Source of the DNA: Clostridiales bacterium
GTDB taxonomy: Bacteria > Bacillota > Clostridia > Oscillospirales > Oscillospiraceae
Length of the DNA stretch: 17,499 nt
Direction of reading: 5' to 3'
Assembly: GCA_021199695.1 (NCBI GenBank)
Contig: JAJQHP010000146.1
Location: 1-17,499, forward strand
The notes beneath the pieces were generated by a model that saw nothing but the letters and a program-made list of their open reading frames with translations, was not told the origin of the DNA and searched no databases. Every line of letters starts with the position of its first letter. Position 1 is the first letter of the stretch. The translations under genes were made by a program, and so were the position numbers. Below, piece by piece: positions 3,129 through 17,499 of this stretch.

Positions 3129-4004
3129 TTAACCCAGATATTCCATGGGGTCCACCAGCACGCCGTCCTTCTTCACGGCGAAGTGGAGCCAGCCGCCCTC
3201 GTTGCTCTCTCCGGCGGCAGTCTCCCCCACAGCGCCGATGACTTGCCCCGCGGAGACCTTGTCCCCCTGCCGGACGGCCACCTCCTCAGACAGATTGCCG
3301 TAAATGGTCATCAGTCCGTCCCCGTGGTTGAGGGTGATGACGGTCCCCAGGAGGGGGTCGCTCTCCACGGAAAGCACCTCCCCGTCCAGGGCGGCGTAGA
3401 CCTCCTCTCCCACCTCGGCGGCCAGGTCCACCCCGTTGTGGGTGCGCCAGTCCTCCAGGGCAGCGTTATAGGTCAGCTCGCTGTCAGAGAAAGCGGCCAC
3501 AGCCTCCCCGGAGACGGGGGCGGTAAAGCCGTCCTCCTCCGTCTCCGCCGTCTGGACCGCTTCCTCCGCCACAGCCTCCGCTACCGGCTCCGTCTCCGTC
3601 TGGACGGTTTCCGCCGCCGGTTCCGCCGTCGCCCCGGTCTCCTGGCTCTCCTGAACCGGCTCCTGGGCGGCGGCCTCCTCTGCGGCGGCGTCGGCGATCT
3701 CCCGGGCCGTCTCGTCCTCAGCTTCCGGCTCCGGTTCCCCGGACTCGGCCAGCGCGTCCGCCGTCTGTTCGGCGTCCTCCTGTCCGTCCTCTGTGGCTTC
3801 GTTCTCTGTCTCCGGCTCTACCTCTACCTCCGCCGGGGCGTTGGCGGCGACGGAGGGGGTCTCCGTCTCCAGCTCCTGACCGGCCAGCCACCAGAGATAG
3901 TACCCGGAGCCGCCGATGGCAAGGACACACAGCAAAAGCACCATGTAGAAGCCCTTGCCCAGGAGAAAATCGCCCACCCGGCGCACAAATGGTTTCTTCT
4001 TCAT
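3129..4004 (-). CDS. spoIIQ: SpoIIQ-like membrane protein with degenerate M23 (LytM) peptidase domain
   Basis: 291 residues. There is a basic N-terminus, one membrane segment (about 20-40), a long acidic Glu/Ala/Thr linker (about 45-158), and an M23 domain (about 160-290). The zinc ligands of the family are present: H189 and D193 in HNGVD, and H274 in WLHF. The two other conserved histidines are replaced: Y-x-H-L reads YGNL (N237), and the first His of HxH is W272. SpoIIQ is the forespore-membrane half of the SpoIIQ-SpoIIIAH channel of engulfment. The single N-terminal anchor, the length close to B. subtilis SpoIIQ and the LMTIYGNLSE-V-x-Q-GDKV stretch fit that family. Here it would bind zinc but probably not cut peptidoglycan. 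The ATG has GGAGG (4014-4018) 9 nt upstream. A candidate forespore-sigma promoter sits just upstream. The usual neighbours spoIID and spoIIID are not here, so a general M23 scaffold protein remains possible. Confidence 0.72.
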   Translation of the reverse strand: MKKKPFVRRVGDFLLGKGFYMVLLLCVLAIGGSGYYLWWLAGQELETETPSVAANAPAEVEVEPETENEATEDGQEDAEQTADALAESGEPEPEAEDETAREIADAAAEEAAAQEPVQESQETGATAEPAAETVQTETEPVAEAVAEEAVQTAETEEDGFTAPVSGEAVAAFSDSELTYNAALEDWRTHNGVDLAAEVGEEVYAALDGEVLSVESDPLLGTVITLNHGDGLMTIYGNLSEEVAVRQGDKVSAGQVIGAVGETAAGESNEGGWLHFAVKKDGVLVDPMEYLG

Positions 4005-4775: not shown

Positions 4776-4840
4776 GCGGGGCGGAGCCGAATTTGCACAG
4801 ATGCCTTTTTCCAAATGGAGCAGCTTTCCGGTTGACAACC
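4767..4840. repeat. Imperfect 13-bp inverted repeat across the divergent promoters
   Basis: Left arm GGTTGTCAAGCGG (4767-4779), right arm CCGGTTGACAACC (4828-4840); 12 of 13 bases pair. Each arm contains the -35 box of one of the two divergent promoters. Part of the match is forced because both -35 boxes are TTGACA, but the flanking AACC and CGG also match. It could be a shared operator; no regulator gene is visible nearby. Confidence 0.45.
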
Positions 4841-4860
4841 GCCCCGGGGACGGATAAGAT
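4832..4860 (+). promoter_or_regulatory. Sigma-A-type promoter of the surface-polymer cluster
   Basis: TTGACA (4832-4837), 17-bp spacer, TAAGAT (4855-4860). Start of transcription near 4867, with a leader of about 42 nt before the ATG at 4909. It is the best candidate to drive the whole plus-strand cluster. Confidence 0.7.
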
Positions 4861-4908
4861 AGGGTACAAATAAGCGGCAGACCGCCGGACGAGAGGGGGA
4901 CAGGGTTT

Positions 4909-6066
4909 ATGAAACAGATGCTGCTTGCCGTTGCGAAGTGGGGGATGAGCCTGCTGTACCTGCTGTTCCGTCCCCTGCGGGTGCGCAACAAGGTGGTCAT
5001 GCTCTCCCGGGAGTCGGACACGCCTCCCATCGACTTCGTCCTGCTCCGCCAGGAGCTGGCCCGCATCGCCCCGGAGACAGAGGTGGTCATGCTCTGCCGG
5101 AAGCAGACCCGCCGGACGAACCCCGTCACCTATTGCCTCTTCCTTATTCGCAACCTGTATCACATCGCCACCGCCTCCGTGGCGGTGACGGACACCTACT
5201 CCATCCCCCTGTGCGTGCTGCGCCACAAGCCGGAGCTGAAGATCGTCCAGATCTGGCACGCCGTGGGGGCGGTGAAGCAGTTCTCCTATCAGTGCCTGGA
5301 CCGGCCGGGGGGACATTCCTCCGCTATGGCAAAACAGATGGCCATGCACCGGAACTATGACTACATCCTCTGCCCCAGTGAAGCGACCCGACACATTTAC
5401 GCCCAGGCCTTCGACGCCCCGGAGGAGCGCATCCTGCCCCTGGGGATGCCCCGTATCGACTATATCCAGCGCCCTGACCCGGACATCCGGGAGCGGTATC
5501 TGGCTCAGCGGCCCCAGCTCCGGGGGAAAAAGCTGGCCCTGTATCTCCCCACCTTCCGGGAAGGGGTGGACGAGGGAGTGCGGGCCATGGTGGAGGCGGC
5601 GGCCGACCGGCCGGAGGTCGCCCTGCTGGTCAAGCCCCATCCGCTCTCTCAATTCCAGCTGTCGGAACAGAACCGGACAGTCCGGGGCTGGTCTACCTAT
5701 GATCTGATGAAGGTGTGCGACGCGGTGATCACCGATTACTCCGCCGCCTCCCTGGAGGCCAGCCTGCTCCACAAGCCGGTATACTTCTACCTGTTCGACA
5801 AGGAGCGGTATGTGGAAGATCAGGGGCTGAACATCGACCCGGAGCAGGAGCTGCCCCTGGCCTGCTTCCGCCGGGCGGATCAGCTGCTGGAATCGGTGGC
5901 CCTGGGGGACTATGACCTGGCGGCCCTGGAGGACTTCCGGGCCAGATACATCGAGACGGCGGACCGGAACAACACCGCCGACATCGGGGCGTTTCTCTGC
6001 ACCCTTCTCCCGGAGCGGTTCCGGCCGTCTCCGGCAGAGCGCGCGGGGGAGCGCACCGCGCCATAA
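4909..6066 (+). CDS. TagB/TagF-type CDP-glycerol glycerophosphotransferase
   Basis: 385 residues, CDP-glycerol:poly(glycerophosphate) glycerophosphotransferase family. These peripheral membrane enzymes move glycerol phosphate from CDP-glycerol onto a lipid-linked teichoic acid precursor or growing chain. Visible motifs in order are: a hydrophobic, basic N-terminus (1-25); QIWHAVGA (114-121) for the family's QxWHG region with H117; GMPRID (179-184); LPTFRE (213-218); KPHP (242-245); ITDYSAASLEA (274-284); and VYFYLFD with YVEDQG. The length fits a TagB-like primase better than the much longer two-domain TagF polymerase. The tagD gene follows and supplies its donor. Ribosome site GAGGGGG lies about 10 nt before the ATG. 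Substrate chain and primer are not knowable from sequence. The 166 nt to tagD contain a promoter and no clear terminator. Confidence 0.88.
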   Translation: MKQMLLAVAKWGMSLLYLLFRPLRVRNKVVMLSRESDTPPIDFVLLRQELARIAPETEVVMLCRKQTRRTNPVTYCLFLIRNLYHIATASVAVTDTYSIPLCVLRHKPELKIVQIWHAVGAVKQFSYQCLDRPGGHSSAMAKQMAMHRNYDYILCPSEATRHIYAQAFDAPEERILPLGMPRIDYIQRPDPDIRERYLAQRPQLRGKKLALYLPTFREGVDEGVRAMVEAAADRPEVALLVKPHPLSQFQLSEQNRTVRGWSTYDLMKVCDAVITDYSAASLEASLLHKPVYFYLFDKERYVEDQGLNIDPEQELPLACFRRADQLLESVALGDYDLAALEDFRARYIETADRNNTADIGAFLCTLLPERFRPSPAERAGERTAP

Positions 6067-6161
6067 CGGGCAAAGCAGATCAAGGGGGCGGCGGCTCCCT
6101 TTTCTGCTGTGGCAGGGGACAGGGACCTGCCGCCGGGAAACCTTACAAATGCGGGAAAGCA

Positions 6162-6190
6162 TTGCATCATGGAGAAAATTGTGGTATGAT
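6162..6190 (+). promoter_or_regulatory. Internal promoter before tagD
   Basis: TTGCAT (6162-6167), 17-bp spacer, TATGAT (6185-6190), with GG upstream of the -10 rather than a full TGn. It is in a locally AT-richer stretch. Start near 6197, leader about 36 nt. It would let tagD and downstream genes be transcribed apart from the TagB-like gene. Confidence 0.55.
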
Positions 6191-6232
6191 AATGCGTGTT
6201 TTCATGGATACCGATCACGGAGGCATACAGCT

Positions 6233-6622
6233 ATGAAAAAAGTCATCACTTATGGCACCTATGACCTGCTCCACTACGGGCATATCAATCTCCTCAGAAG
6301 GGCCAGAGCCCTGGGGGATTACCTCATCGTGGCCCTCTCCACCGATGAGTTCAACTGGAACGAGAAGCAGAAAAAGTGCTATTTCAGCTATGAGCAGCGC
6401 AAACAGCTGCTGGAGGCGGTGCGATATGTGGACCTGGTCATCCCCGAGACCTGCTGGGAACAGAAGGCCTCTGATGTAAAGGAATTCCGGGTGGATACCT
6501 TTGTCATGGGGGACGACTGGAAGGGACAGTTTGACTTTCTCAGCGACCTGTGCGAGGTGGTCTATCTGCCCCGCACGCCGGAGATCTCATCCTCTCAAAT
6601 CAAGCAGGACCTGGGCCGGTAA
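6233..6622 (+). CDS. tagD: Glycerol-3-phosphate cytidylyltransferase TagD
   Basis: 129 residues, the same length as B. subtilis TagD. It makes CDP-glycerol from CTP and sn-glycerol 3-phosphate, the donor used by TagB/TagF enzymes in the cytosol. Nucleotidyltransferase signatures are complete: YGTYDLLHYGH at residues 7-17 with the HxGH motif at 14-17, the R-Y-V-D and MGDDWKG regions (around 64-67 and 94-100), and ISSSQIK near the end (family ISSTxIK). The ATG at 6233 has CGGAGG (about 6218-6223) 9 nt upstream; an in-frame ATG far upstream lies inside the preceding gene in another frame and is not used. The next gene starts 18 nt after the stop. Confidence 0.95.
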   Translation: MKKVITYGTYDLLHYGHINLLRRARALGDYLIVALSTDEFNWNEKQKKCYFSYEQRKQLLEAVRYVDLVIPETCWEQKASDVKEFRVDTFVMGDDWKGQFDFLSDLCEVVYLPRTPEISSSQIKQDLGR

Positions 6623-6640
6623 GAGAAAAGCGAGGACAGG

Positions 6641-9600
6641 ATGGATTCAAGAGAGAGAATGAAGCGCAGGCAGAACAACCTGGGCTGGCTGCTGTACCTG
6701 GCGTCGGCAGTCTTCTGGGCAATGAACTGTTTCCGCAGCAAACGGATTGTTATGGCGGGGTATACCTTTGCCTCGGTCATTGTGTTTCCCGGTATGCTGT
6801 TCCTCATGGGGCGGGAGTCCCGGGGAAAGGACCGGCGGGGGCTGATCTCCTCCGGTGTGGGAATGATCCTCCTGGGATATGCGCAAAAGGTGCTGCTGTT
6901 CTGGTGCGAGACGCTGGCGGGACGGGAGCCGGGGTTCTACCCCTTCTCTACCACCGGCGCGCCCTGGCTGTTCCTGGTGGGAGGCGTCTGCCTGATCTTG
7001 ACGGGCGTAGTACCCCAAAGAGACTGGATGAAAAAATGGCTCCTGCCCCTGACGGTGGTCATCGGCCTGGCGGCGGGGCTGATCAAGCCTGTCACCAATT
7101 TCCTGTGCCTGTCCCGGCTGGCGGTGTATCTGCCCTTCTTTGTGCTGGGCCGCACCATGGAGGACGAAAAGCTGGCCCGGTGGTGCCGCGCCAGATCCAG
7201 CAAGCTGCCCTCTCTGCTGCTGGTTGGCGGATGGGCGGTGGCGTGCGTCCTGCTGCGGGGCTATTGGAAAAATCTGCGGGCGCTCATCGACGGGAACACC
7301 TGGTACGACGGCGTGGCGGGATTGCCCGCGACCTGGGCTGGTATCCTGGCCCGGCTGGCTTTCTATGTCCTGGCGGCAGGACTGATCTGTGCAGTGTGGA
7401 CGCTGACCCCGGACTGGAAGGTGCCGCTGTTCTCTGACCAGGGAAAGCGGTGGAAGTCCGGCTATTTCTGGTTCTCGCCGCTGATTTATGTGCTGGTGCT
7501 GCCCTTGGGGAACAAGCTCTCTCTGACAGGGGTCGCCGTGAGCGGTGCGTTGTGTGTACTGGCCGGGCTGGCGGCGCCCAGTCGCCTGGCGAACCGGCTT
7601 CCCAGCCTGTGCCTGAATGTGGCGTCTCGCCTGGACAGAGAGGAACGCCCGGTCCGCGCCCTGGGCCGGAAGCGTTTCTGGCAGCGACACCGGTGGGGTC
7701 TGAAAATGACCGCCCTGTTCACCGTCCTCTTTCTGGTGGTGGCGGTGGCCTACGTCTACCCCTTTACCTTCAACGGGAAATCTCTGGTCTGGTCCACCGA
7801 CGGCCTGGATCAGCAGTTCCCCGGGATGCTCTACTTCAAAGAGTATGTGATGAGCGGGATCAACAGCCTGCTGGAGACCGGCGTGCTCCACTTCCCTGAG
7901 TGGGATTTCACCCTGGGCTTCGGAATGTCCCCCCTGGACGTGATCCGGCGGGAGCCGTTTATGCTGCTGAGCCTGCTGGGCAATGAGGAGACGATGGAGA
8001 TCATCGCGGACATCACGGTGATCCTCCGCCTGTATGTCTGCGGTCTGGTGTTCATCTGGTTCTGCGCCACCCTGGGCAAGCGGGAGAAGCTGCTCATCCT
8101 GGCGGGGGCGCTGGCCTACGTCTGCTCCGGCTACGCCATCTTTGTCGCCGCCCGACAGCCTTTTTTCACCACCGTCCTGATGACCTATGGGGTGCTGACC
8201 CTCATCGGGGCGGAGCGGTTCATCCGGCAGCGGAAGTGCGGCGTGTTCGTGCTGGCGGTCTTTTTGCAGTGCTTTTCCGGATACTACTCCGCCTATGTCA
8301 ACGGCGTGATCCTGGCGATCTACCTGCTCATCCGGCTGTTCTGCCTCCACGGGAAAAAGGCGGGGAGGGTCCTCTCCGAGATCGTGAAGCTGATCGGCCT
8401 TTATGCCTGGGGCGCGGCCATGGCCGCCTGCACCCTCCTGCCCGGGATACTGAGCTTTGCCGACTCTGCCCGAAGCGGCGATGGGACGGAATTCAGCGTC
8501 TTTTACAGCAACAGCTACTACTCCGGGCTGCTGGACGGCCTGAACCTGGAGTTCAGCTTCATCGGCTCCTGGACCCATATCAGCATGGCGGCGCTGGCCT
8601 GGCTGGCCTGTATCCTGCTGTTCCGGCGGAAGGGGAAGGAGCTCCGTCCCCTGAAAGCGGGGCTGATCGTCTGCTGTGTGGGTATCTGCCTGCCCATCTT
8701 CGGCCTGGCCACCAACGGCTTCTCCTATGTGTCCAACCGCTGGGGCTATGCCTTCTGCCTGCTGGTGGCCTATATCCTGGTGGAGATGCTGCCGGAGCTG
8801 GCGGCCCTGACCCGCCGGGACAGGCTGGTACTGACCGGAGGCACGGTGGCCTACTGCGCCGTCTGCGCCACCCAGAGCGACGCCACCAAGCTGGTAGCCC
8901 TCGGGCTGGTGACTATGGCGGTGACCATGCTGGTGCTGATCCTGCTGGACGAGTCGGGGCTGAAACGGGGACAGCGGATCGGGGTGCTGACCCTGGTCAC
9001 GGTGTACACGGTCATGCTCAATGTGTCCAGCTCCCTGTTGCCGGAGGGCGGAGACTATGTGTCTCAGTTCATATACGCCGGAGAGACCTACAGCACTATG
9101 TGCGGCCTGATGGGCGACGCCCTGTCCACGGAGACGCTGTCGGAGGACGACTCTTTCTACCGCATCGATCAGGACTCTCCGCAGTATAATCAGGCCAGCG
9201 CGCTGGATTTTAACGGCACAAACTCCTATTACAGCGTCATCCCTTCGGGGATCAGCGAATATTTTGCGGACGTCTGCCTGAGCAGCCAGTCCCACACCTT
9301 CTGCGTCCGCAATCTGGACGAGCGCTCTGCTCTGATGGCTCTGGCCAGTGTGAAGTATTACGTCTCCTCCAAGGAGACGCGAGTCCCCTACGGCTTTGAG
9401 GCGGTGGAGTCGGTGGAGAGCGAGGACGGGGAGAAGACGGTGACGGTGTACGAGAACCGGAACGCCCTGCCCCTGGGCTATACCTACACCAGCTATGTCA
9501 CCCAGGAGGAGTACGAGGCCATGACCCCCCTGGAGCGGCAGCAGGTGATGCTGGAGAGCGCAGTGATCGGCGTGGATACCGACCTGCTGGAGCACGATGA

Positions 9601-10381
9601 GGAGACCTACACCGAGGAACGGACTGAGGTCAGGGTGAAGTCCAGCGACGGCCTGACCCTGGATCAGGAGGCAAAGACCATCTCCGCAGAGAGCGACGGC
9701 AGCAGCATCAAGCTGTCCTTTCAGGGGGAGGCCAACTGCGAGACCTATCTGGTGATCTCCGGGCTGGAATTTGCCAACCAGAGCAGCTCCGCGACCTGCG
9801 AGATCCGCTGCAAGGGGAAGGGCAACAGTGAAATGGCCACCCTCCGGGGCAAGACCCAGAGCTATTACTTTGAAAAGGACGCGGTGGTGTTCAATCTGGG
9901 CTACAGCGAGGAGGGCCAGACCAGCTGCACGCTGACCTTCGAGACGGCGCTGAATGCGGTTTATGACGACATCTATGTGGTCTGCATCCCCATGGATGAG
10001 ATGGACAGCCAGGTAGACGCCCTCCGGGAGGTCGTGCTGGAGAACGTGGTGGAGGACGGCGACCGGATCACCGGGACGATCTCCCTGGAGGACAGCCGTC
10101 TGCTGACCTTCTCCGTTCCCTACGCCGAGGGCTGGAGCGTCTATGTCAACGGTGAGGAGGCCGAGCTGCTCGAGGTCAACGTCATGTACTGCGGCGTCCT
10201 GCTGGAGCCGGGGGAGTATGAGATCGAGCTGCGATATGAGCAGCCGGGAACATCCACAGGGCTGCTGATCTCCGCCGTCGCAGTGATCGCCATTCTGCCG
10301 GTGGCCCTGGTGCGCGGAGCGCTGAGACGGCGGAAACAGGTCAAACCAAAGCAAAGCCCGGCGGAGAGCGGCACAACCTGA
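6641..10381 (+). CDS. YfhO-family GT-C membrane protein with an N-terminal degenerate acyltransferase-3-like membrane region (fusion)
   Basis: 1246 residues, about 350 more than typical YfhO proteins. Residues about 10-340 are a first block of about nine membrane segments. Stretches such as LSRLAVYLPFFVLGRTM (157-173) look like the fucose 4-O-acetylase / acyltransferase-3 family, but the catalytic His expected near the first membrane segment is absent, so enzyme activity is doubtful. Residues about 350-800 are the YfhO GT-C core, with YPFTFNGKSLVWSTDGLDQQ (373-392) in the first outer loop, including the Asp pair 387/390 in DGLDQ, followed by many membrane segments. About 800-1210 is a large external soluble part, and a final membrane helix (about 1214-1235) ends in a basic tail. 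YfhO-type proteins transfer sugars from undecaprenyl phosphate to teichoic acids outside the membrane. Start ATG 6641 has GAGG upstream; ATG 6659 is an alternative. The downstream GT2 and SMR genes supply matching steps. Confidence 0.8.
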   Translation: MDSRERMKRRQNNLGWLLYLASAVFWAMNCFRSKRIVMAGYTFASVIVFPGMLFLMGRESRGKDRRGLISSGVGMILLGYAQKVLLFWCETLAGREPGFYPFSTTGAPWLFLVGGVCLILTGVVPQRDWMKKWLLPLTVVIGLAAGLIKPVTNFLCLSRLAVYLPFFVLGRTMEDEKLARWCRARSSKLPSLLLVGGWAVACVLLRGYWKNLRALIDGNTWYDGVAGLPATWAGILARLAFYVLAAGLICAVWTLTPDWKVPLFSDQGKRWKSGYFWFSPLIYVLVLPLGNKLSLTGVAVSGALCVLAGLAAPSRLANRLPSLCLNVASRLDREERPVRALGRKRFWQRHRWGLKMTALFTVLFLVVAVAYVYPFTFNGKSLVWSTDGLDQQFPGMLYFKEYVMSGINSLLETGVLHFPEWDFTLGFGMSPLDVIRREPFMLLSLLGNEETMEIIADITVILRLYVCGLVFIWFCATLGKREKLLILAGALAYVCSGYAIFVAARQPFFTTVLMTYGVLTLIGAERFIRQRKCGVFVLAVFLQCFSGYYSAYVNGVILAIYLLIRLFCLHGKKAGRVLSEIVKLIGLYAWGAAMAACTLLPGILSFADSARSGDGTEFSVFYSNSYYSGLLDGLNLEFSFIGSWTHISMAALAWLACILLFRRKGKELRPLKAGLIVCCVGICLPIFGLATNGFSYVSNRWGYAFCLLVAYILVEMLPELAALTRRDRLVLTGGTVAYCAVCATQSDATKLVALGLVTMAVTMLVLILLDESGLKRGQRIGVLTLVTVYTVMLNVSSSLLPEGGDYVSQFIYAGETYSTMCGLMGDALSTETLSEDDSFYRIDQDSPQYNQASALDFNGTNSYYSVIPSGISEYFADVCLSSQSHTFCVRNLDERSALMALASVKYYVSSKETRVPYGFEAVESVESEDGEKTVTVYENRNALPLGYTYTSYVTQEEYEAMTPLERQQVMLESAVIGVDTDLLEHDEETYTEERTEVRVKSSDGLTLDQEAKTISAESDGSSIKLSFQGEANCETYLVISGLEFANQSSSATCEIRCKGKGNSEMATLRGKTQSYYFEKDAVVFNLGYSEEGQTSCTLTFETALNAVYDDIYVVCIPMDEMDSQVDALREVVLENVVEDGDRITGTISLEDSRLLTFSVPYAEGWSVYVNGEEAELLEVNVMYCGVLLEPGEYEIELRYEQPGTSTGLLISAVAVIAILPVALVRGALRRRKQVKPKQSPAESGTT

Positions 10382-10439
10382 GAGAGGCCGGTCTGCGCTG
10401 TCGAATGTAAAAGAATGAGAGATATGGAGGTAATGTGAA

Positions 10440-11579
10440 ATGATCCCCTTCAATCGTCCGCCCTATACGGGCAAAGAGCTGGACTATATGGCCCAGGCGG
10501 TGCTGGTCAACCACAAGCTGTGCGGCGACGGCCCGTTTACGAAACAGTGTCACGCTCTGCTGGAGCAGCAGACGGGCAGCCCCAGAGTGCTGCTGACCAC
10601 CTCCGACTCCGACGCCCTGGAGATGGCCGCCCTGCTGTGCGAGCTCAAGCCCGGGGACGAGGTCATTATGCCCTCCTACACCTTCTGCTCCACCGCTAAC
10701 GCTTTCGTCCTCCAGGGCGCTGTGCCGGTGTTCGTGGATGTCCGGCCGGACACCATGAACATTGACGAGACCAAGATCGAGGCGGCCATCACCGACCGGA
10801 CCCGGGTCATCTGCGCTGTCCACTATGCGGGCATTGGCTGCGAGATGGACACGATCATGAACATCGCTCACCGCCACGGGCTGCTGGTGGTAGAGGACGC
10901 CGCCCAGGGCGTCATGGCCAGCTATAAGGGCCGGGCCCTGGGAAGCATCGGCGACTTTGGCTGCTTCTCCTTCCATGAGACGAAGAACTACTCCATGGGA
11001 GAGGGGGGCGCCGTCCTGGTGAACCGCCCGGAGCTGGTGGAAAAGGCGGAGACCATCCGGGAGAAGGGCACCAACCGCTCCCGCTTCCTCCGGGGACAGG
11101 TGGACAAGTATACCTGGGTGGAATACGGCTCCTCTTACCTCCCCAGCGACATCAACGCCGCCCACCTGCTGGCCCAGCTGGAGATGGCGGACGAGATCAA
11201 CCGGGACCGGCTGGATTCCTGGCACTACTATGAGGAGGGGCTGGCTCCTCTGCGGGACGCGGGGAAGCTCCGTTTCCTGGAGCCTCCCGCCGAGTGTGCC
11301 CACAACGCCCATATGTTCGCCATCCGGGTGAAGGACCTGGAGGAGCGGACTGCCCTGACCTCCTTCCTCAAGGAGCGTGACATCACCGTCTCCTTCCACT
11401 ATGTCCCTCTGCACAGCTCCCCTGCCGGACGGAAGTTTGGCCGGTTCCACGGGGAGAACGTCTATACCGACCGGGAGAGCGACCGGCTCACCCGTCTGCC
11501 CATGTACTACGGCCTGAGCCGGGCGGAGCAGGATCAGGTGATTGACGCCATTTTCGACTTCTTCGGCCAGAAACGGTAA
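10440..11579 (+). CDS. wecE: dTDP-4-amino-4,6-dideoxygalactose transaminase WecE (RffA)
   Basis: 379 residues, DegT/DnrJ/EryC1/StrS aminotransferase. It converts dTDP-4-keto-6-deoxyglucose plus glutamate to dTDP-4-amino-4,6-dideoxygalactose (dTDP-Fuc4N) in the cytosol. It follows enterobacterial WecE closely throughout: MIPFNRPP start, KLCGDGPFT, GDEVIMPSYTF (72-82), DTMNIDETKIEAAITD (104-119), VEDAAQGVM (151-159, the Asp that holds the PLP ring nitrogen), FSFHETKNY with the PLP lysine K182, REKGTNRS, RGQVDKYTW and FHYVPLH. The match across specificity regions makes WecE more likely than another sugar aminotransferase. The sugar-nucleotide steps that feed it (RmlA, RmlB) are not in the window. 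GGAGG (10426-10430) lies 9 nt before the ATG; 58 nt separate it from the previous gene with no promoter visible. Confidence 0.92.
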   Translation: MIPFNRPPYTGKELDYMAQAVLVNHKLCGDGPFTKQCHALLEQQTGSPRVLLTTSDSDALEMAALLCELKPGDEVIMPSYTFCSTANAFVLQGAVPVFVDVRPDTMNIDETKIEAAITDRTRVICAVHYAGIGCEMDTIMNIAHRHGLLVVEDAAQGVMASYKGRALGSIGDFGCFSFHETKNYSMGEGGAVLVNRPELVEKAETIREKGTNRSRFLRGQVDKYTWVEYGSSYLPSDINAAHLLAQLEMADEINRDRLDSWHYYEEGLAPLRDAGKLRFLEPPAECAHNAHMFAIRVKDLEERTALTSFLKERDITVSFHYVPLHSSPAGRKFGRFHGENVYTDRESDRLTRLPMYYGLSRAEQDQVIDAIFDFFGQKR

Positions 11580-11595
11580 GAGGGCGGAGACGGAG

Positions 11596-12834
11596 ATGGA
11601 AGAAAGAGTGGGTATGTCCATCACAGCGGAGGAGCGGGAGAGACGGATAGGGACCATGCTCTCCTGCCTCCTGGGATCGCTGCTGTTTTTCCTGGCTTTT
11701 TACTCCACCTACCATCTGCTGGCCGAGGTGGATGCCAGTGATTTCACGGTCCATTTGGGCTGGGCGGATGAGTTTAACAAGTGGACGCTGCTCCGGGCGC
11801 TGCTTACGGGCAGCGATCGGCTGTGGCACGCCTTTGTCTGGCTGTTGAATCGGCTGGGGGTGGAGCTTGTCTATGCCGGATGTCTGGTGACGGCGGGCGC
11901 GATCGAGGCGGTCTATCTCATCTACAATGCCCTGCTGAAAGAAATGCTCCAATGGCTCGACCGGCGGATCATCCCCGTGTCCTCCCTGATCCTGTGTCTG
12001 GTGTCGTCCATCTATATGCCCTGGTATGATACCCACATATACGCGGGACAGGGCTCTCCCAACATCTGGCACAATCCCACCCAGCTGATGGTCCGGCCCT
12101 TCGCTCTGATCGCCTTCTGGATGACGGTGCGCATCTATCGCCGTCTGCGGGAGGGAGAGGGCTGGCCCTCCCGGGCCTTTGAGAGCAAGGGGGAGGTCGT
12201 GGCCTACGCTTTCGTCCTGATGCTGACGGTGTGGGCCAAGCCCTCCTTTGTCCAGGCGTTTATCCCGGGACTGGCGATTTTGATGATCGTGGATCTGATC
12301 CGCAGCCGGGGAAAGGCGTTCCTGTTCTGTTTCAAGGTCGCCTGCGCCTATATCCCGGCGGCGGCGCTGGTGCTGATGAACTTCCTGTCCAACTTCGGCT
12401 CGGACTCCGGAAACGGCATTGAGATCGCCTTGCTGGATGTGTGGTCCCACAGCACGGACAATATCCCATTCTCCTTCCTGCTGCTGTTTGCCTTCCCCCT
12501 GTTTGTGTTTATCGTGGATTGGAAGCGGCTGCTGTTCAGCGTGGAGGGCCAGCTCTCCCTGTCCGACCTGGCGGTGGCCGTGGGGATGAAGGCGACCCTG
12601 GCAGAGACGGGGAGCCGCCGCTATCACGGCAACCTGAGCTGGAGCTACGGCCTGGCGGCAGTCTTTGTGTGGTTTATTGCTCTGAGAAGCTTCCTGGAGC
12701 TGATGTTTGGCAACCGGCTGACCGGGAAAAAGTATACGGCGGTGGCCGTAGTGGGCTGGACGCTGCTGTTCCTGCATCTGCTGACCGGCATCCTCTACTA
12801 TATCAAAATTGTCTCCGGCGAGATCCTGTTCTGA
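11596..12834 (+). CDS. Polytopic membrane protein of unknown family, possible GT-C-type transferase or polymer-handling protein
   Basis: 412 residues with about nine or ten hydrophobic segments. I do not recognise the family. A conspicuous outward loop reads IYAGQGSPNIWHNPTQLMVRP, rich in aromatic and polar residues, and an earlier loop after the first helix carries D/E residues (EVDASDF, WADEF). Both are of the kind seen at the active face of GT-C glycosyltransferases, but this is only suggestive. A soluble stretch lies before the last two helices. I chose ATG 11596 because GGAG (11586-11589) is 6 nt upstream; an ATG at 11542 would overlap wecE and has no ribosome site, and ATG 11614 is another option. 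It sits between wecE and the GT2, so a role in placing the amino sugar, or in recognising its lipid carrier, is plausible. Confidence 0.8.
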   Translation: MEERVGMSITAEERERRIGTMLSCLLGSLLFFLAFYSTYHLLAEVDASDFTVHLGWADEFNKWTLLRALLTGSDRLWHAFVWLLNRLGVELVYAGCLVTAGAIEAVYLIYNALLKEMLQWLDRRIIPVSSLILCLVSSIYMPWYDTHIYAGQGSPNIWHNPTQLMVRPFALIAFWMTVRIYRRLREGEGWPSRAFESKGEVVAYAFVLMLTVWAKPSFVQAFIPGLAILMIVDLIRSRGKAFLFCFKVACAYIPAAALVLMNFLSNFGSDSGNGIEIALLDVWSHSTDNIPFSFLLLFAFPLFVFIVDWKRLLFSVEGQLSLSDLAVAVGMKATLAETGSRRYHGNLSWSYGLAAVFVWFIALRSFLELMFGNRLTGKKYTAVAVVGWTLLFLHLLTGILYYIKIVSGEILF

Positions 12835-12863
12835 GCGTGCCGGAGGAGAGTGAGCGTGATTTG

Positions 12864-13829
12864 ATGGAAGAAGTTCAACTGATCAGCTTTGTCATCCCCT
12901 GCTATAACAGCGAGGGCTCTGTCTCCCTGGTCATTCAGGAGATCCGGGAGGTGGTGGCCCAGCGCCCGGAGTATGACTACGAGGTGGTGGCGGTGAACGA
13001 CTGCTCCCCCGACCATGTGCTGGACGTTCTGATTGCCGAGGCCCAGGCGGACCGGAAGGTGAAGGTGATCGACCTGGCCAAGAACGGCGGTCGGCACAAT
13101 GCCCTGATGGCGGGGTATCATGTGGCGGAGGGGGAATTTGTGGTCTGCATAGACGATGATTGCCAGTGCCCCCTGGACCGGTTCTGGGATCTGCTGGCTC
13201 CCCTGGAGCGGGGAGATGCGGATGTGGCCTTCGCCAAGTATGGGAAAAAGCAGCAGAGCGGACTGAAAAATCTGGGGAGCTGGTTCAACGACGTGGGCTC
13301 TACCTGGCTGATGGACAAGCCCAGGGATCTGCACTTCTCCAACTTCGCGGTGATGCGCCGGTTCATCCGGGACGAGGTCATCCGCTATGACAACCCCTAT
13401 GCCTACGTCTCCGGGCTGATGTTCCGGGCCTCCTCCCGGGTGGTGAACGTCCCCATGGAGGACCGGGCGCGGACCATCGGCACCAGCAACTACACCCTGC
13501 GCAAGTCCATTCAGCTGCTGGTCAATTCGTTCACCTCCTTCTCCATCAAGCCCCTGCGGCTGGCCACCTCGGTGGGCGTGATCTGTGCGCTGATCGGCTT
13601 CCTCTATGGGGTGGTCGTCATCATTCAGCGGCTGATTCAGCCCGTCTATGCGGCGGGGTACAGCTCCATTATGGCGGTGCTGCTGTTTATCGGCGGCATG
13701 ATCATGATCCTGCTGGGCATCATCGGGGAGTATATCGGCCGCATCTATATCTGTATCAACAAGGCTCCCCAGTATGTGGTACGGAAAACCTACAACGTGG
13801 AAAAAGACACGCCTGCGGAGGTTCGATAA
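12864..13829 (+). CDS. Polyprenyl-phosphate glycosyltransferase, GT2 (GtrB/CsbB/ArnC type)
   Basis: 321 residues. Residues 1-230 are a GT-A domain: VIPCYNSE (10-17), VNDCSPD (44-50), KNGGRHNALMAGY (73-85) and the metal-binding DDD (97-99) in CIDDDCQCP. A GTSNYTLRK motif (206-214) matches the family's G-x-S-x-Y region. Two C-terminal membrane helices (about 233-257 and 268-292) carry the typical short loop. Family members load a sugar from a nucleotide donor onto undecaprenyl phosphate on the inner membrane face. In this context the donor is plausibly the WecE-derived dTDP-amino sugar, as ArnC uses an amino sugar, but specificity is inferred. The ATG at 12864 has GGAGGAG (12842-12848) somewhat far upstream (15 nt); a TTG one codon earlier is possible. 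The next gene starts 1 nt after the stop. Confidence 0.9.
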   Translation: MEEVQLISFVIPCYNSEGSVSLVIQEIREVVAQRPEYDYEVVAVNDCSPDHVLDVLIAEAQADRKVKVIDLAKNGGRHNALMAGYHVAEGEFVVCIDDDCQCPLDRFWDLLAPLERGDADVAFAKYGKKQQSGLKNLGSWFNDVGSTWLMDKPRDLHFSNFAVMRRFIRDEVIRYDNPYAYVSGLMFRASSRVVNVPMEDRARTIGTSNYTLRKSIQLLVNSFTSFSIKPLRLATSVGVICALIGFLYGVVVIIQRLIQPVYAAGYSSIMAVLLFIGGMIMILLGIIGEYIGRIYICINKAPQYVVRKTYNVEKDTPAEVR

Positions 13830-13830
13830 C

Positions 13831-15018
13831 ATGAAAAAAATCCTGATTTTGGGCGCTGGAATCTATCAGGTGCCCCTCATCGTCAAGGCCAGGGAGATGG
13901 GCTATTATACCATCGTGGCCAGTATTCCCGGCAACTACCCCGGCTTCCAGTACGCTGACAAGGTGTATTATGTAAACACCACCGACCAGGAAAAGCTGCT
14001 GGAAATCGCCCGGGAGGAGGGCATCAGCGGCGTCTGTGTCAGCGGTACTGACGTATGTGTCCCCGCTCAGGGATACCTCTGCGACCGGCTGGGGCTCACC
14101 GGTCCCACTGAGGCGGCCGCCCGCCGGGCCCAGGACAAGCGGCTGATGAAGCAGGCGTTTCTGGCCAACGGAGTGCGCACCGCCCGGTGCGCCTATGTGG
14201 ACATCGACAACAGTAATCCGGTGGACATCTGCGAAGAGATCGGCTATCCGGTGATCTTCAAGGCGGTGGACTCCTCCGGCAGCCGGGGCATCACCCGGGT
14301 CAACGGCCCGGAGGATATCCCCTATGCCTGGCAGGAGGCGAAGAACAACACCCGTTCTGACAAGTACCTGATCGAGAAGTATCTGGTAGGCCGGGAGTTC
14401 GGTGCCCAGGCCTGCGTCTGGCACGGGGAGATCCAGTTCGTGCTGCCCCACGGAGACTATGTGTTCCAGGGGGATACCGGGGTGCCCATCGGCCATTTTG
14501 CCCCCTATGAGATCGACGAGGAGATCATCGCTGACTGCAAGGAGCAGACCCGGCTGGCCATCCAGGCCCTGGGCATCGACAACTGCGCCATCAACGCGGA
14601 CTTCATCCTCTGCGACGGCAAGACCTACGTGCTGGAGATCGGCGCCCGGGCGGGAGCCACCGGCCTGGTGGAGCTGACCAGCCTGTACTACGGCTTTGAC
14701 TACAACGAGAAGATCCTCCAGATCAATATGGGGGAGGATGTGGACTTTACCCCGGTGCTGGAAAAGCCCCAGGCCAACGTGGAGATGGTGTTCTGCGCGG
14801 AAAAGACCGGCGTGGTACGGTCCATCGACACGGCCGGCGTGGAGCCGGACCCCCGTATCGTCAGCCTGTCCTTCGATGTGGAGCCGGGCGAAAAGGTGCG
14901 GAAGTTCCGCAAGGGCCCGGATCGGTTCGGCATGATCATCACCGTGGGGGACACGGTGGACGAGGCCAAGTCGGTCATGGAGCGGGCCATGTCCCAGGTG
15001 AAGGTCACCATCGACTGA
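13831..15018 (+). CDS. ATP-grasp carboxylate-amine ligase family protein
   Basis: 395 residues. An N-terminal pre-ATP-grasp Rossmann-like domain (ILILGAGIYQVPLI, 4-17) is followed by an ATP-grasp domain at about 100-300. Visible are DKRLMK (102-107), FKAVDSSGSRGI (143-154) with K144 and the glycine-rich loop, IEKYLVGREF (181-190), the metal-site region NADF (255-258), and VLEIGAR (267-273) with E269 and R273. The usual E-x-N-x-R metal motif reads E-I-G-A-R, a variant I associate with ATP-grasp proteins of capsule-type clusters. Family members join a carboxylate to an amine through an acyl phosphate. Next to wecE the amine could be the 4-amino group of Fuc4N, with an amino acid or another acid attached; this is inference. 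The true start is ATG 13831, GGAGG 9 nt upstream. Confidence 0.85.
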   Translation: MKKILILGAGIYQVPLIVKAREMGYYTIVASIPGNYPGFQYADKVYYVNTTDQEKLLEIAREEGISGVCVSGTDVCVPAQGYLCDRLGLTGPTEAAARRAQDKRLMKQAFLANGVRTARCAYVDIDNSNPVDICEEIGYPVIFKAVDSSGSRGITRVNGPEDIPYAWQEAKNNTRSDKYLIEKYLVGREFGAQACVWHGEIQFVLPHGDYVFQGDTGVPIGHFAPYEIDEEIIADCKEQTRLAIQALGIDNCAINADFILCDGKTYVLEIGARAGATGLVELTSLYYGFDYNEKILQINMGEDVDFTPVLEKPQANVEMVFCAEKTGVVRSIDTAGVEPDPRIVSLSFDVEPGEKVRKFRKGPDRFGMIITVGDTVDEAKSVMERAMSQVKVTID

Positions 15019-15033
15019 CGGAGGGGAGAGAGT

Positions 15034-16347
15034 ATGTCTTACGCCACCGACCGAAAGATCGAGCCGCTGCTCATGGCGGCGACTCTGGCTACCCTGGAGA
15101 AAAAGCCGCCCCGGGACCTGAAAAAGACCAAGGCGAAGCAGGACGAGCGTATTCATGCGCTCATGGTCCGGGCCTATGAGATCCCCTTTTACCGGGCCCG
15201 GTTCGAGGCCACCGGCACCACGCCGGAGGACTATCACACCGCCGCCGATCTGTACAAGTTCCCCCTCCTGACCAAGGAGGAGCTGCGGGACTGGACGGAC
15301 CGGGAGCTGGCGGAGCACCCGGAGAAATACCGGGACTGGCACGTCAATCCCACCAGCGGCTCCACCGGACTGCCTCTGAAAACCCTGTTCTCCCCCCGGG
15401 AGAACGCCGCCGCCCAGGCCAACTGGATGCGGGTGCTGATGATGGGGGGCTTTATCCCCGTCGTCCACAAGAACCTCCACCGTCCCAACTCCCTCCACAC
15501 CACCACCGGAGGCAAAAAGTCCCTGATGGCCAGGCTGGTGGATACCCGGTGGAAGGAGATGTCCGATTCCATCAAGAACCGTATCCCCAGCGAGCAGCTG
15601 CTCCGGGAGATCAACGACTACAAGCCTTATTTCCTCTACACCCACAAAAACGTCCTGGTGCGGGTGGCCAAGTACGCCAAGGAGAACAACCTCTACCTGT
15701 GGCAGCCCAAGCTGTACGCCCCCATCAGCGAGATGCTGGACAGCCAGTCCGAGCGGCTGCTGCTGGAGATGTTCGGCCCCGGCCTGCTCAACGCCTATGG
15801 CCTGTCTGAGGTGGGCAGCTGCGCCACCCGGCTCCCGGGCAGCAGGGAGTTTGTGGTCAACAACGACACCCACGTCATCAACATCTATGACGACGACGGC
15901 AACCCGGCGGACAACGGCATGGCGGCGGTGACTCCTCTGTTCAAAACCGACCTGCCCCTCATCAACTACACCACCCGGGACCGGATGGAGAGCTACCGGA
16001 AGGAGGGCATCCGCTTTATCACCGCCATCCTGGGCCGGATGAACGATGTCATCCGCCATAAGGACGGCTCCGTGACCGAGTGGGGCAACATCGAGGTGGT
16101 GGTGAACTATGCCACCAATCTGGACATCGTCCAGAGCCGGTTTATCCAGGAGAGCTATGACCGAATTCGTATCCAGCTGGTCAAGGACCCGGCTTCCACT
16201 CTGAGCGATGAGGAGATCGAACGGCGGTATACCGAGCTGTTCGCCCCGGTGCTCAACCATGAGTTCCAATTCGAATATGAGTGGCTGGAGGAGATCCCCG
16301 CCGACCCCAACGGCAAGCTGCGTATGATCGTGTGCAATATTTCGTGA
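15034..16347 (+). CDS. PaaK/CapK-type adenylate-forming enzyme
   Basis: 437 residues, phenylacetate-CoA ligase / coenzyme F390 synthetase / CapK family. Core motifs are intact: the phosphate loop TSGSTGLPLK (107-116), YGLSE (255-259), YTTRD (312-316) with the ribose-binding Asp, GRMNDVI (334-340), and a C-terminal NGKLR lysine (K428) as in the A10 motif. Such enzymes activate a carboxylic acid as an acyl-AMP, then pass it to CoA or another acceptor. CapK-like members are common in capsule and polymer clusters, where their exact role is poorly known. Here it might activate the acid that decorates the WecE amino sugar, acting with the ATP-grasp protein or the hexapeptide acyltransferase. GGAGGGG lies about 8-10 nt before the ATG; 15 nt follow the ATP-grasp gene, so the two are surely co-transcribed. 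Confidence 0.88.
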   Translation: MSYATDRKIEPLLMAATLATLEKKPPRDLKKTKAKQDERIHALMVRAYEIPFYRARFEATGTTPEDYHTAADLYKFPLLTKEELRDWTDRELAEHPEKYRDWHVNPTSGSTGLPLKTLFSPRENAAAQANWMRVLMMGGFIPVVHKNLHRPNSLHTTTGGKKSLMARLVDTRWKEMSDSIKNRIPSEQLLREINDYKPYFLYTHKNVLVRVAKYAKENNLYLWQPKLYAPISEMLDSQSERLLLEMFGPGLLNAYGLSEVGSCATRLPGSREFVVNNDTHVINIYDDDGNPADNGMAAVTPLFKTDLPLINYTTRDRMESYRKEGIRFITAILGRMNDVIRHKDGSVTEWGNIEVVVNYATNLDIVQSRFIQESYDRIRIQLVKDPASTLSDEEIERRYTELFAPVLNHEFQFEYEWLEEIPADPNGKLRMIVCNIS

Positions 16348-16351
16348 CAAT

Positions 16352-16369
16352 GGGAGGCGCCCAGTCTTG
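16352..16369 (+). promoter_or_regulatory. Ribosome site that sets a TTG start
   Basis: GGGAGG (16352-16357) is followed after 9 nt by TTG (16367-16369). No in-frame ATG lies between it and residue 15 of the following gene, and the nearby ATG at 16350 is in another frame. TTG starts often lower translation. Confidence 0.7.
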
Positions 16370-16726
16370 ATCGATCAATTCTTATCCAAAAAGCGCAATC
16401 TGTACCTGATGGTGGCTTTCGTCATCTTTATCGAGAGCCTGAGCACGGCGATGCTCAAGGTGGCGGGCCAGTATCCCACGATGTCCTTTCAGTTCTGCCT
16501 GTTCTATGTGATATCGGTGGGCATCTTCGGCGTGGACGCCATCTGCTGGCAGCTGATGCTGGAGCGGATGCCCCTGGGGACCGCCTATATGCGAAAGGGC
16601 GGGACCTATGTCCTGTTCTTCTTCTGGGCGGTGGTGCTGTTCCACGAGACGATCACGGTCCAGAACATCATCGGTATGGGTATTATTATTTTGGGAATGG
16701 TGGTGAGTATGTCCGATGACCATTAG
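16367..16726 (+). CDS. SMR/EamA-type small membrane protein, first of a pair (ArnE/F-like flippase subunit)
   Basis: 119 residues, four membrane helices, TTG start. In helix 1, E23 and K31 are eight residues apart (E-S-L-S-T-A-M-L-K), the same spacing as E14 and K22 of EmrE, so the membrane Glu of SMR transporters is kept. The loop before helix 3 (GTAYMRKGGTYV) replaces the drug-exporter Y-A-x-W-x-G motif, which argues against a multidrug pump. In ArnE/ArnF, paired SMR-like proteins flip undecaprenyl-phosphate-aminoarabinose. The location after an ArnC-like GT2 and the overlap with the next gene support a similar flippase role here. Confidence 0.82.
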   Translation: MIDQFLSKKRNLYLMVAFVIFIESLSTAMLKVAGQYPTMSFQFCLFYVISVGIFGVDAICWQLMLERMPLGTAYMRKGGTYVLFFFWAVVLFHETITVQNIIGMGIIILGMVVSMSDDH

Positions 16727-17099
16727 CTATCTGTATGCCATGGGCTCCGTGCTGGTGGCCGTGGTGGGGCAGCTCCTGCTGAAAACCGAAGCGGGCAGGG
16801 AGCACGCCTCCTTCCTGGGAAAATACCTGAACGTCAGGGTCATATCCGCCTATGTGCTGATGGTAGTCTCCCTTTTCCTCAACGCCCTGGCGTTGCGGGA
16901 TCTGCCCCTGTCGGTGCTGCCCTGCATCACCTCCACCAGTTTTATCTGGATCATTATCCTGTCCGCCGTCTGCTTCAAGGAGAAGCCCACCGTGAAAAAG
17001 GTGGCGGGAGCCCTGCTTATTATTGTGGGCATCATCGTCTCCCGGGTGGATTTTCAGGAGCTGTCGGCGGCCATCGGTCTGACGGCATTGGGAGGCTGA
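16716..17099 (+). CDS. SMR/EamA-type small membrane protein, second of a pair (ArnE/F-like flippase subunit)
   Basis: 127 residues with four membrane helices. It overlaps the first SMR gene by 11 nt, which suggests translational coupling and a fixed ratio of the two proteins. Helix 1 has V-A-V-V-G-Q-L-L-L-K: the Lys (K23) is kept, but the site of the SMR Glu is Ala (A15). The GQLLLK form is typical of ArnE-like subunits. The ribosome site before ATG 16716 is weak, which fits coupling. Helix 3/4 (FIWIIILSAVCFKEKPTVKK, IIVGIIVS) matches the EamA pattern of a charged loop followed by a glycine-containing last helix. Confidence 0.83.
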   Translation: MTISYLYAMGSVLVAVVGQLLLKTEAGREHASFLGKYLNVRVISAYVLMVVSLFLNALALRDLPLSVLPCITSTSFIWIIILSAVCFKEKPTVKKVAGALLIIVGIIVSRVDFQELSAAIGLTALGG

Positions 17100-17103
17100 G
17101 AGA

Positions 17104-17499
17104 ATGAAAAATGCGATTCAACGTCTGGTGCAGATGGTCTTCGGACTGACCCTGTTTGAGCTGCCCGGCCTGAACAAGCTACGGATCTGGGCCTATCGGG
17201 CGGTGTTCGACATCGGCCCCAACCCCCGCTACATCTCCAACCATGTTACCATCCTTCTGGGCCACCGCCGGACGGGGGAGAGCAAGACCCCGGAGACGAA
17301 GCCCCACACCATCAAGATCGGTGCCCGGGTGGGCCTGTCCGCCAACGTACAGATCGACTATGTGGGCGGTGTGGTCATCGGAGACGACGTGTGGTTCTCT
17401 GAGGGGGCCAAGGTGCTGACCCATGACCACAATCTCGGCCCGGAGCGGGTGGAGCTGAAGCCGGAGAGCATGCCGGTCTCCCACCTGATCGTAGGGGAC
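17104..17499 (+). CDS. Left-handed beta-helix (hexapeptide) acetyl/acyltransferase, N-terminal part
   Basis: At least 132 residues; cut by the window end and open throughout. An amphipathic N-terminal segment (1-35) precedes hexapeptide-repeat sequence (about 69-105): IKIGARVGLSANVQID, VVIGDDVWFSEGAKVLT. These repeats are followed by THDHN (106-110), which holds the His expected to activate the acceptor, and a later IVGD start of another coil. Family members acetylate sugar hydroxyls or amines from acetyl-CoA. Here it may O- or N-acetylate the deoxy amino sugar or the polymer. ATG 17104 has GGAGG (17091-17095) 8 nt upstream, inside the end of the previous gene; the intergenic gap is 4 nt. Confidence 0.85.
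   Translation, partial: MKNAIQRLVQMVFGLTLFELPGLNKLRIWAYRAVFDIGPNPRYISNHVTILLGHRRTGESKTPETKPHTIKIGARVGLSANVQIDYVGGVVIGDDVWFSEGAKVLTHDHNLGPERVELKPESMPVSHLIVGD

Follow-up and report, generated by a model that had tools for sequence, protein, structure and literature searches.

A clostridial gene run predicted to build, acylate and flip a Fuc4N surface decoration

The window, the whole 17,499-nt stretch analysed, is the entire contig C58 of a 1.5 Mb assembly that is 68% complete. From 4909 to 17499 it carries a run of genes, all on the + strand and separated by small gaps or overlapping. ORF positions and family profile searches confirmed that the genes listed in an earlier, sequence-only reading are real and lie in the order given there. 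This order recurs within the source genus, and for the ten genes that were compared, the hexapeptide gene not among them, dN was lower than dS, some dS values being near or above 1 and hence saturated. Recurrence of the order and dN < dS argue that the cluster did not arise by chance. The genus sample comprises 27 WecE-bearing loci, with 32 genomes for the TagD count; gene calling in these loci used codon scores learned from the genes of the window and missed the WecE of L050 (tblastn match 77%). The sample outside the genus comprises 75 loci, 56 anchored on PaaK and 19 on WecE, the latter chosen without PaaK.

The run opens with two teichoic-type genes, both lineage-specific neighbours. A TagB-like glycerophosphotransferase (4909..6066, +; PF04464, 151.7 bits) falls short of the TarB equivalog NF041711 (137.2 of 500 bits), and an orthologue-like gene adjoins a TagF-like pair in other genomes of the genus. 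The TagD glycerol-3-phosphate cytidylyltransferase (6233..6622, +) exceeds the equivalog cut-off of TIGR01518 (203.7 against 165.4 bits) and is present in 28 of 32 genus genomes.

WecE, a dTDP-4-amino-4,6-dideoxygalactose transaminase (10440..11579, +), scores above the curated cut-offs of NF008687 (605.9/375 bits) and TIGR02379 (593.6/434.85 bits) and matches PDB 4piw with 528.6 bits. The curated models thus bear out, at family level, the proposal that it makes dTDP-Fuc4N. RmlA and RmlB, for which the sequence-only reading advised a check, are probably missing from the window through the end of the contig. Both follow the hexapeptide gene in L044, the nearest relative, and score above curated cut-offs there. 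A second contig of the source genome, C100, begins inside RmlB at the position that matches L044 synteny, and L044 spans the gap, which measures 1,922 bases there. We therefore rejected absence of the two genes: by synteny both probably lie in an assembly gap 3' of the window. The source assembly holds RmlB as a fragment only, and a profile search of it found no RmlA above cut-off. L044 and the matching RmlB fragment thus make their presence likely, and their adjacency is limited, RmlA adjoining just 9 and RmlB 7 of the 27 genus loci.

Two enzymes of carboxylate activation follow further along. The ATP-grasp carboxylate-amine ligase (13831..15018, +) has a LAL_C2 domain (52.6 bits; Pfam cut-off 29.4), matches PDB 4dim with 231.5 bits and retains 98 residues conserved in at least 95% of 42 proteins. 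The PaaK-like adenylate-forming enzyme (15034..16347, +) matches phenylacetate-CoA ligases in the PDB (best E 3.7e-22) and keeps TSGSxG and GKLR invariant in 31 sequences; it lies far below the TIGR02155 equivalog cut-off (51.2/646.3). The last gene encodes a hexapeptide acyltransferase (17104..17499, +), of which the contig end leaves 132 of about 190 residues. Its full-length relative in L044 (3302-3871, 190 aa) matches three models, WcaF, WbbJ and maltose O-acetyltransferase, each with a score under the cut-off.

The sequence-only reading also likened the membrane components to systems that load, flip and transfer a sugar, and by family matches the GT2, the SMR pair and YfhO do look like such a system. 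The GT2 (12858..13829, +; its start may lie about 20 bases upstream) is an ArnC-like polyprenyl-phosphate sugar transferase; its nearest models are PgfS (156 bits) and ArnC (142 bits), both below cut-offs, and its relatives with solved structures are sll0501 and ArnC. D99-D101 is conserved in at least 95% of 50 proteins. By these relatives and the Asp motif it is a predicted GT-A transferase of the polyprenyl-phosphate type. The YfhO-type membrane glycosyltransferase (6641..10381, +) matches PF09586 over residues 361-1211 of 1246 (299.3 bits; cut-off 28.5) and the PgfM model below its cut-off, and D387 is conserved in at least 95% of 35 proteins. At its N terminus the protein has a further membrane domain, roughly residues 1-345; residues 1-360 have no Pfam match, and the domain is a gene of its own in three genomes.

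Between GT2 and YfhO in function would stand two SMR-like proteins, SMR1 (16367..16726, +) and SMR2 (16716..17099, +). Both are nearest to ArnF and ArnE, though far under the cut-offs of NF002816 and NF011625 (SMR1, 35.6/99 for ArnF and 27/92 bits; SMR2, 27.4/99 for ArnF and 26.3/92 bits). The two adjacent proteins show opposite Lys/Arg bias, judged by eye for the window pair from K/R positions and hydrophobic stretches: positive charge sits at the N terminus of SMR1 and mainly in loops 1 and 3 of SMR2. The K/R positions of SMR1 and one Glu are conserved in at least 90% of 23 sequences. Lipid-transporting SMR proteins often have Asn where SMR1 keeps Glu, according to the excerpted text of PMC9574504. 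This Glu and the weak ArnE/ArnF scores count against the predicted role of the pair as a lipid flippase. A Pfam scan listed no GtrA match among the window proteins.

The remaining gene encodes an accessory polytopic membrane protein (11614..12834, +) that matches no family in Pfam or the curated models. D43 and H47 are invariant in 35 relatives; it occurs in 8 of the 27 genus loci and is doubled in L047 and L052. Profile comparison found no relation between it and the YfhO N-terminal domain. A GT-C-like accessory protein and an acyltransferase-3-like N-terminal domain were guesses from sequence, and we claim neither.

The order YfhO-WecE-GT2-ATP-grasp-PaaK-SMR-SMR holds through the genus, except at two loci (L062 and L067) that lack the ATP-grasp although sequence is present there. 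Parts of the set also occur in Lachnospiraceae and Eggerthellaceae. In Coprococcus catus (L173) YfhO, RmlB, RmlA, SMR1, SMR2, PaaK, WecE, GT2 and ATP-grasp lie on one strand, which makes this named species a place to test the module. Among 391 genomes of the class, the only other one bearing PaaK (G531) has WecE-RmlAB-YfhO-GT2 on another contig. Outside the genus, WecE and YfhO each lie near 12 of the 56 PaaK loci. Paired SMR genes accompany 8 of the 19 WecE loci, none of the 28 PaaK loci where WecE, GT2 and ATP-grasp are all missing, and 0 of 14 PF04464-anchored loci of the genus; PaaK is near none of the 19 WecE loci. This last count, the two genus loci without the ATP-grasp, those 28 PaaK loci and the 50 outside PaaK loci without an SMR pair (below) speak against the module. 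Gut clostridia appear to carry a portable gene set for building an amino sugar, attaching acids to it, flipping it and decorating a surface polymer.

The sequences show to which families most of the enzymes belong, which positions are conserved, how the genes are ordered, that the module is naturally absent in places and that SMR form co-segregates with acyltransferase (see below); from them we infer each reaction on this substrate, which acyl groups are added and in what order, flipping and the acceptor. We consider it probable that the set is a Fuc4N module of the following kind. RmlA and RmlB would supply dTDP-4-keto-6-deoxyglucose, which WecE would convert to dTDP-Fuc4N. The ATP-grasp enzyme would join the amine of the sugar to a carboxylic acid (probably an amino acid), and the PaaK-like enzyme would activate a further acid. 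GT2 would place the sugar on polyprenyl phosphate, and the SMR proteins, as an antiparallel pair, would flip the lipid-linked sugar. In the window's form the hexapeptide acyltransferase would add another acyl group, probably before flipping, with the SMR pair matched to it. YfhO would finally transfer the sugar outside, where wall teichoic acid is our best guess for a possible acceptor.

The same system might instead serve a capsular polysaccharide, a glycolipid or a protein, a reading we take seriously while expecting it somewhat sooner to fail than to hold. It draws on the matches of YfhO and GT2 to models of the Streptococcus glycosyltransferases PgfM and PgfS, on the C. catus locus, where a second GT2 and a gene for UDP-galactopyranose mutase come next, and on the Fuc4N genes predicted in a capsule locus of Clostridium butyricum (excerpts of PMC12342839). 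Against it, the recurrent polymer-type neighbours in the genus are TagB and TagD.

These neighbours led the sequence-only reading to a single glycerol-phosphate teichoic pathway in which TagB, TagD and the Fuc4N decoration genes form one functional cluster. TagD adjoins 18 and TagB 9 of the 27 genus loci, TagB-like genes lie near 3 of the 56 outside PaaK loci (0 of the 19 WecE loci), a TagF-like pair lies on contig C193 of the source genome, and PMC8035078 describes YfhO proteins of Bacillus and Listeria that decorate LTA or WTA. However, five of the 27 genus loci have upstream sequence with neither gene (three more are cut there), and TagD is near 0 of the 75 outside loci (0/56 and 0/19). In two genus genomes some 8.1 kb of the module is absent, and gene order points to the same absence in a third, while teichoic-type genes are kept; G163, G165 and G160 have no module but retain PF04464 genes and TagD. 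Conversely, G134 (98% complete) has the module and no TagD match, which argues against a glycerol-phosphate acceptor in that genome. Because homologs occur mainly without teichoic genes, the outcome the sequence-only reading had itself named as refuting, the joined cluster does not stand; the outside counts, the module-free genomes and the adjacency counts exclude TagB and TagD from the core, and we regard a single pathway as unlikely.

PaaK and ATP-grasp families act on many substrates, and the other module genes (WecE, GT2 and ATP-grasp alike) are missing from 28 of the 56 outside PaaK loci. It is nevertheless quite improbable that the two enzymes simply adjoin the sugar genes and make a free small molecule, for example a dipeptide or an N-acyl amino acid: every one of the 25 outside PaaK loci that have the GT2 (at least 200 bits; 25/56) has the ATP-grasp as well, both enzymes keep a fixed position in the genus, after GT2 and before the SMR genes, and ATP-grasps lie near 6 of the 19 WecE loci.

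The Fuc4N module resembles several known systems. CsbB/GtcA/YfhO teichoic glycosylation in Bacillus subtilis, Listeria and Staphylococcus aureus likewise uses a polyprenyl-phosphate GT2 and a YfhO-type transferase, with a small flippase in the place that the SMR pair would fill (PMC8035078). An SMR flippase is not wholly new for YfhO systems, an idea we dropped: the excerpted sources describe GtcA as homologous to SMR transporters (PMC5836110) and count SMR proteins as a third class among these flippases (PMC7389260). Unlike those systems, for which the excerpts name Gal, Glc and GlcNAc, the window has an adjacent SMR gene pair with no listed GtrA match, synthesis genes for a predicted amino-dideoxy sugar, and two carboxylate-activating enzymes, everything in one gene run. 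The enterobacterial Arn (Ara4N) system (ArnC, ArnE/ArnF, ArnT) shares a 4-amino sugar, an ArnC-like GT2 and an SMR pair, but the window would use Fuc4N from a dTDP sugar, has YfhO in place of ArnT, adds ATP-grasp and PaaK, and has SMR proteins under the ArnE/ArnF cut-offs. By curated models the nucleotide sugar is that of the enterobacterial common antigen pathway (RmlA, RmlB, WecE); in contrast to that pathway, no Wzx or Wzy is listed among the window proteins scanned (one membrane protein being without a family), and the sugar would be loaded singly on polyprenyl phosphate. The predicted cluster of C. butyricum, likewise a clostridium, also has genes for dTDP-Fuc4N close to genes of teichoic type; its capsule locus has a TagGH-like transporter, and the excerpts of PMC12342839 do not name an SMR pair, YfhO, ATP-grasp or PaaK. 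A search with narrow terms, covering mostly non-subscription literature, returned, among the matches listed, no title that describes this gene set and no occurrence of the sugar's name; PMC12826051, in the part available, names YfhO and WecE for separate systems. If the proposed scheme is true, gut clostridia gain a route to acylated surface Fuc4N readable by host immunity and phages, and the parts of YfhO systems come to include paired SMR genes and enzymes that activate carboxylates.

The SMR pair exists in two forms, A and B, and the window carries form A. One form is found only together with the hexapeptide acyltransferase, at odds with the PaaK tree. This sequence pattern, a new observation, suggests that flippase and acyltransferase are exchanged as one cassette. 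Their co-segregation offers a testable case of how small flippases choose a lipid-linked sugar. More speculatively, and in our view doubtfully, the set could be a portable gut-clostridial surface module whose amino sugar bears swappable amino-acid and acid caps. Exchange of the flippase pair with the last acyltransferase would then mean that flippase alleles read the sugar decoration, giving an antigenic switch for teichoic-type polymers with a D-alanylation-like role in surface charge. Outside the genus the SMR pair is missing from 50 of the 56 PaaK loci. By eye, a few of these have a flippase-like protein beside PaaK.

We consider it fairly likely that the genes for YfhO, WecE, GT2, ATP-grasp, a PaaK-like enzyme and two SMR proteins form a module for the synthesis, acylation, flipping and transfer of Fuc4N. 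The genes listed in the sequence-only reading are all present on the plus strand of contig C58, which is the entire window (17,499 bases) and belongs to a 1.5-Mb, 68% complete assembly, as confirmed by gene calls and family searches. WecE and TagD score above curated cut-offs; for the TagB-like, PaaK-like, GT2 and SMR proteins, which are related to named members, scores stay under the equivalog cut-offs of those members. On the minus strand lie two BspA-type leucine-rich repeat proteins (3-2905), one of which looks, by eye, to have a signal-like N terminus, and an M23 peptidase-domain protein (3129-4004) that adjoins the cluster.

WecE is present in 27 of 32 genomes of the genus and in 23 of the 26 good ones. 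At the WecE loci of the 26 other genomes and the window (n = 27, on our gene calls), YfhO is invariably present, and GT2 is found at 24 (the other three are cut by contig ends), PaaK at 22 (five cut), ATP-grasp of either of two types at 21 (four cut, two without) and the SMR pair at 21 (five cut, one without; 22 if a separate contig of G046 is counted). A family-less membrane protein occurs at 8/27 loci and the hexapeptide acyltransferase gene at 5/27. The family-less gene is doubled in tandem at L047 and L052, and the WecE reading frame is in pieces at L052 and L069, by assembly error or a real break. The second ATP-grasp type, ~27% identical, occupies the same module place in L043/L063 and the L054-L060 group, where it either replaces or accompanies the window's type. 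L059 is 82% identical to the window in PaaK, 63% in GT2 and 69% in WecE, a mismatch that suggests further recombination within the module.

No RmlA over the cut-off was found in the window's own incomplete genome (1.5 Mb, 68% complete), and its RmlB consists of a contig-edge fragment (C100), plus one low-scoring relative. The locus of the nearest relative, G156 (L044), aligns with window positions 4813 to 17499 at 90.5% and with C100 from base 1 at 92.8%, leaving a gap of 1,922 bases of L044 that, by gene calls, contain the remaining hexapeptide gene sequence, RmlA and the greater part of RmlB. This RmlA and RmlB pass TIGR01207 (466.1/360.65) and TIGR01181 (494.9/365.1). It is therefore very probable that the window's gene run includes the genes that supply the dTDP sugar. 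Across the genus WecE loci, RmlA lies downstream in 9/27 and RmlB in 7/27; several others have downstream sequence without either.

The sequence-only reading had joined the teichoic-type neighbors to the Fuc4N genes. TagD lies beside 18 of the 27 genus WecE loci and TagB beside nine, one of these without TagD; five loci having upstream sequence carry neither, and three are cut there. A strict link between module and TagD is opposed by G134 (98% complete), in which the module is present and no TagD match was found. In genomes of the genus other than the window's, the TagB-like gene adjoins a TagF-like pair, with a LytR-CpsA-Psr gene alongside in G134, and 14 genus loci centered on PF04464 genes, a rough, unmatched control, gave no match to SMR, WecE or GT2. 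TagB-like genes (120-131 bits) also lie near PaaK in other clostridial loci (L177, L186 and L188, the last two titled Lachnospiraceae).

Three genomes, G165, G163 and G160, are missing WecE and retain TagD and several PF04464 genes; polymer-type genes therefore exist without the module. The G165 locus (L228) aligns with that of G155 (L066) as far as base 2532 and resumes at 2603; between the two aligned parts L066 carries 8,134 extra bases, with the remainder of the YfhO gene and the genes for WecE, GT2, ATP-grasp, PaaK and the SMR pair. The G163 locus (L230) has the same pattern (8,142 bases); that of G160 (L229) was compared by gene order only. The YfhO N-terminal domain persists in all three as a 349-aa gene for a standalone membrane protein (L228, 1498-2547; same places in L229 and L230). 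This protein is retained at sites that have no module, shares 75-81% identity with the fused YfhO N-domain of that clade and has a dN/dS of 0.21-0.26 among the three genomes. We infer that the module was lost, not gained, there. G150 (100% complete) has no match for WecE, YfhO or TagD.

Of the 22 loci in the genus that have PaaK and the SMR pair, five carry the hexapeptide gene. In the SMR tree a branch (100/99) separates these five from all others; well-supported branches of the PaaK tree require at least three changes. In the clearest case, G157, PaaK and WecE are 97% and 94% identical to the window's, SMR1 and SMR2 54% and 48%, and RmlA comes straight after SMR2, the hexapeptide gene being absent. 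SMR matches occur at 29 of the 80 loci from named genomes (the best 80 of 156 PaaK relatives), many sharing genomes with the 22-locus set: all five with the hexapeptide gene have the window's SMR form (A), and 23 of the 24 without it have form B, the remaining one, L164 (Eggerthellaceae), scoring almost equally with the two forms (134 and 132 bits). Our reading, limited by close linkage and by resting on about three tree changes, is that SMR1, SMR2 and the acyltransferase were swapped as a single cassette; such joint exchange suggests that the acyl group goes on before flipping.

Conserved positions include WecE K182, GT2 D99-D101, YfhO D387, PaaK GKLR and ATP-grasp K145/E270/R274 (numbering from base 13828). 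Their roles, which we take from their families, are consistent with active module enzymes. The acids attached, their order and the target polymer are presumed parts of the scheme. Positive charges lie chiefly at the N terminus of SMR1 and in the first and third loops of SMR2; this pattern agrees with the opposite charge placement expected of paired SMRs (PMC9574504). SMR1 retains Glu where lipid SMRs often carry Asn, which argues against a simple ArnE/F assignment.

No paper on this gene set was found among those searched, which is not proof of absence. Excerpts describe Gram-positive systems that use plain sugars and flippases of the GtrA or Wzx type (PMC8035078), a Clostridium butyricum capsule predicted to contain Fuc4N, with TagGH (PMC12342839), and GtcA as related to SMR transporters, with SMR proteins named as a flippase class (PMC5836110, PMC7389260). 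These SMR precedents and the G134 result slightly lower our confidence in the Fuc4N module.

PaaK-like proteins occur in 3/150 sampled family genomes (E up to 1e-20; all of this genus) and 2/391 class genomes (E up to 1e-30), own genome included in both; the other class genome, G531, has PaaK and its ATP-grasp together on one contig and WecE with GT2, RmlA, RmlB and YfhO on another. WecE (E up to 1e-90) occurs in 34/391, own included. Among the best 80 of 156 PaaK relatives in named genomes, 56 were judged outside the genus, many on short contigs, so that absences are soft. Nearby were ATP-grasp of two types (300 bits or more) at 28/56, GT2 (200 bits or more) at 25, all with ATP-grasp, WecE and YfhO at 12 each, the SMR pair at six, RmlA and TagB-like genes at three each, and TagD at none. 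The 28 loci with none of ATP-grasp, GT2 and WecE also lack any SMR match. Coprococcus catus (L173) carries YfhO, RmlB, RmlA, SMR1, SMR2, PaaK, WecE, GT2 and ATP-grasp on a single strand. Around WecE at 19 outside loci (the 16 best-scoring of 33 outside matches and three more), we found GT2-family matches (40 bits or more) at 15, the SMR pair at eight, ATP-grasp at six, RmlA at five and YfhO at three; PaaK and TagB or TagD were at 0/19. The PaaK relatives of L146-L169, except L160, L164 and L166, lack nearby WecE, strong GT2 or ATP-grasp matches and are mostly titled Lachnospiraceae; in L148 a UDP-galactopyranose-mutase-like gene adjoins PaaK, by eye.
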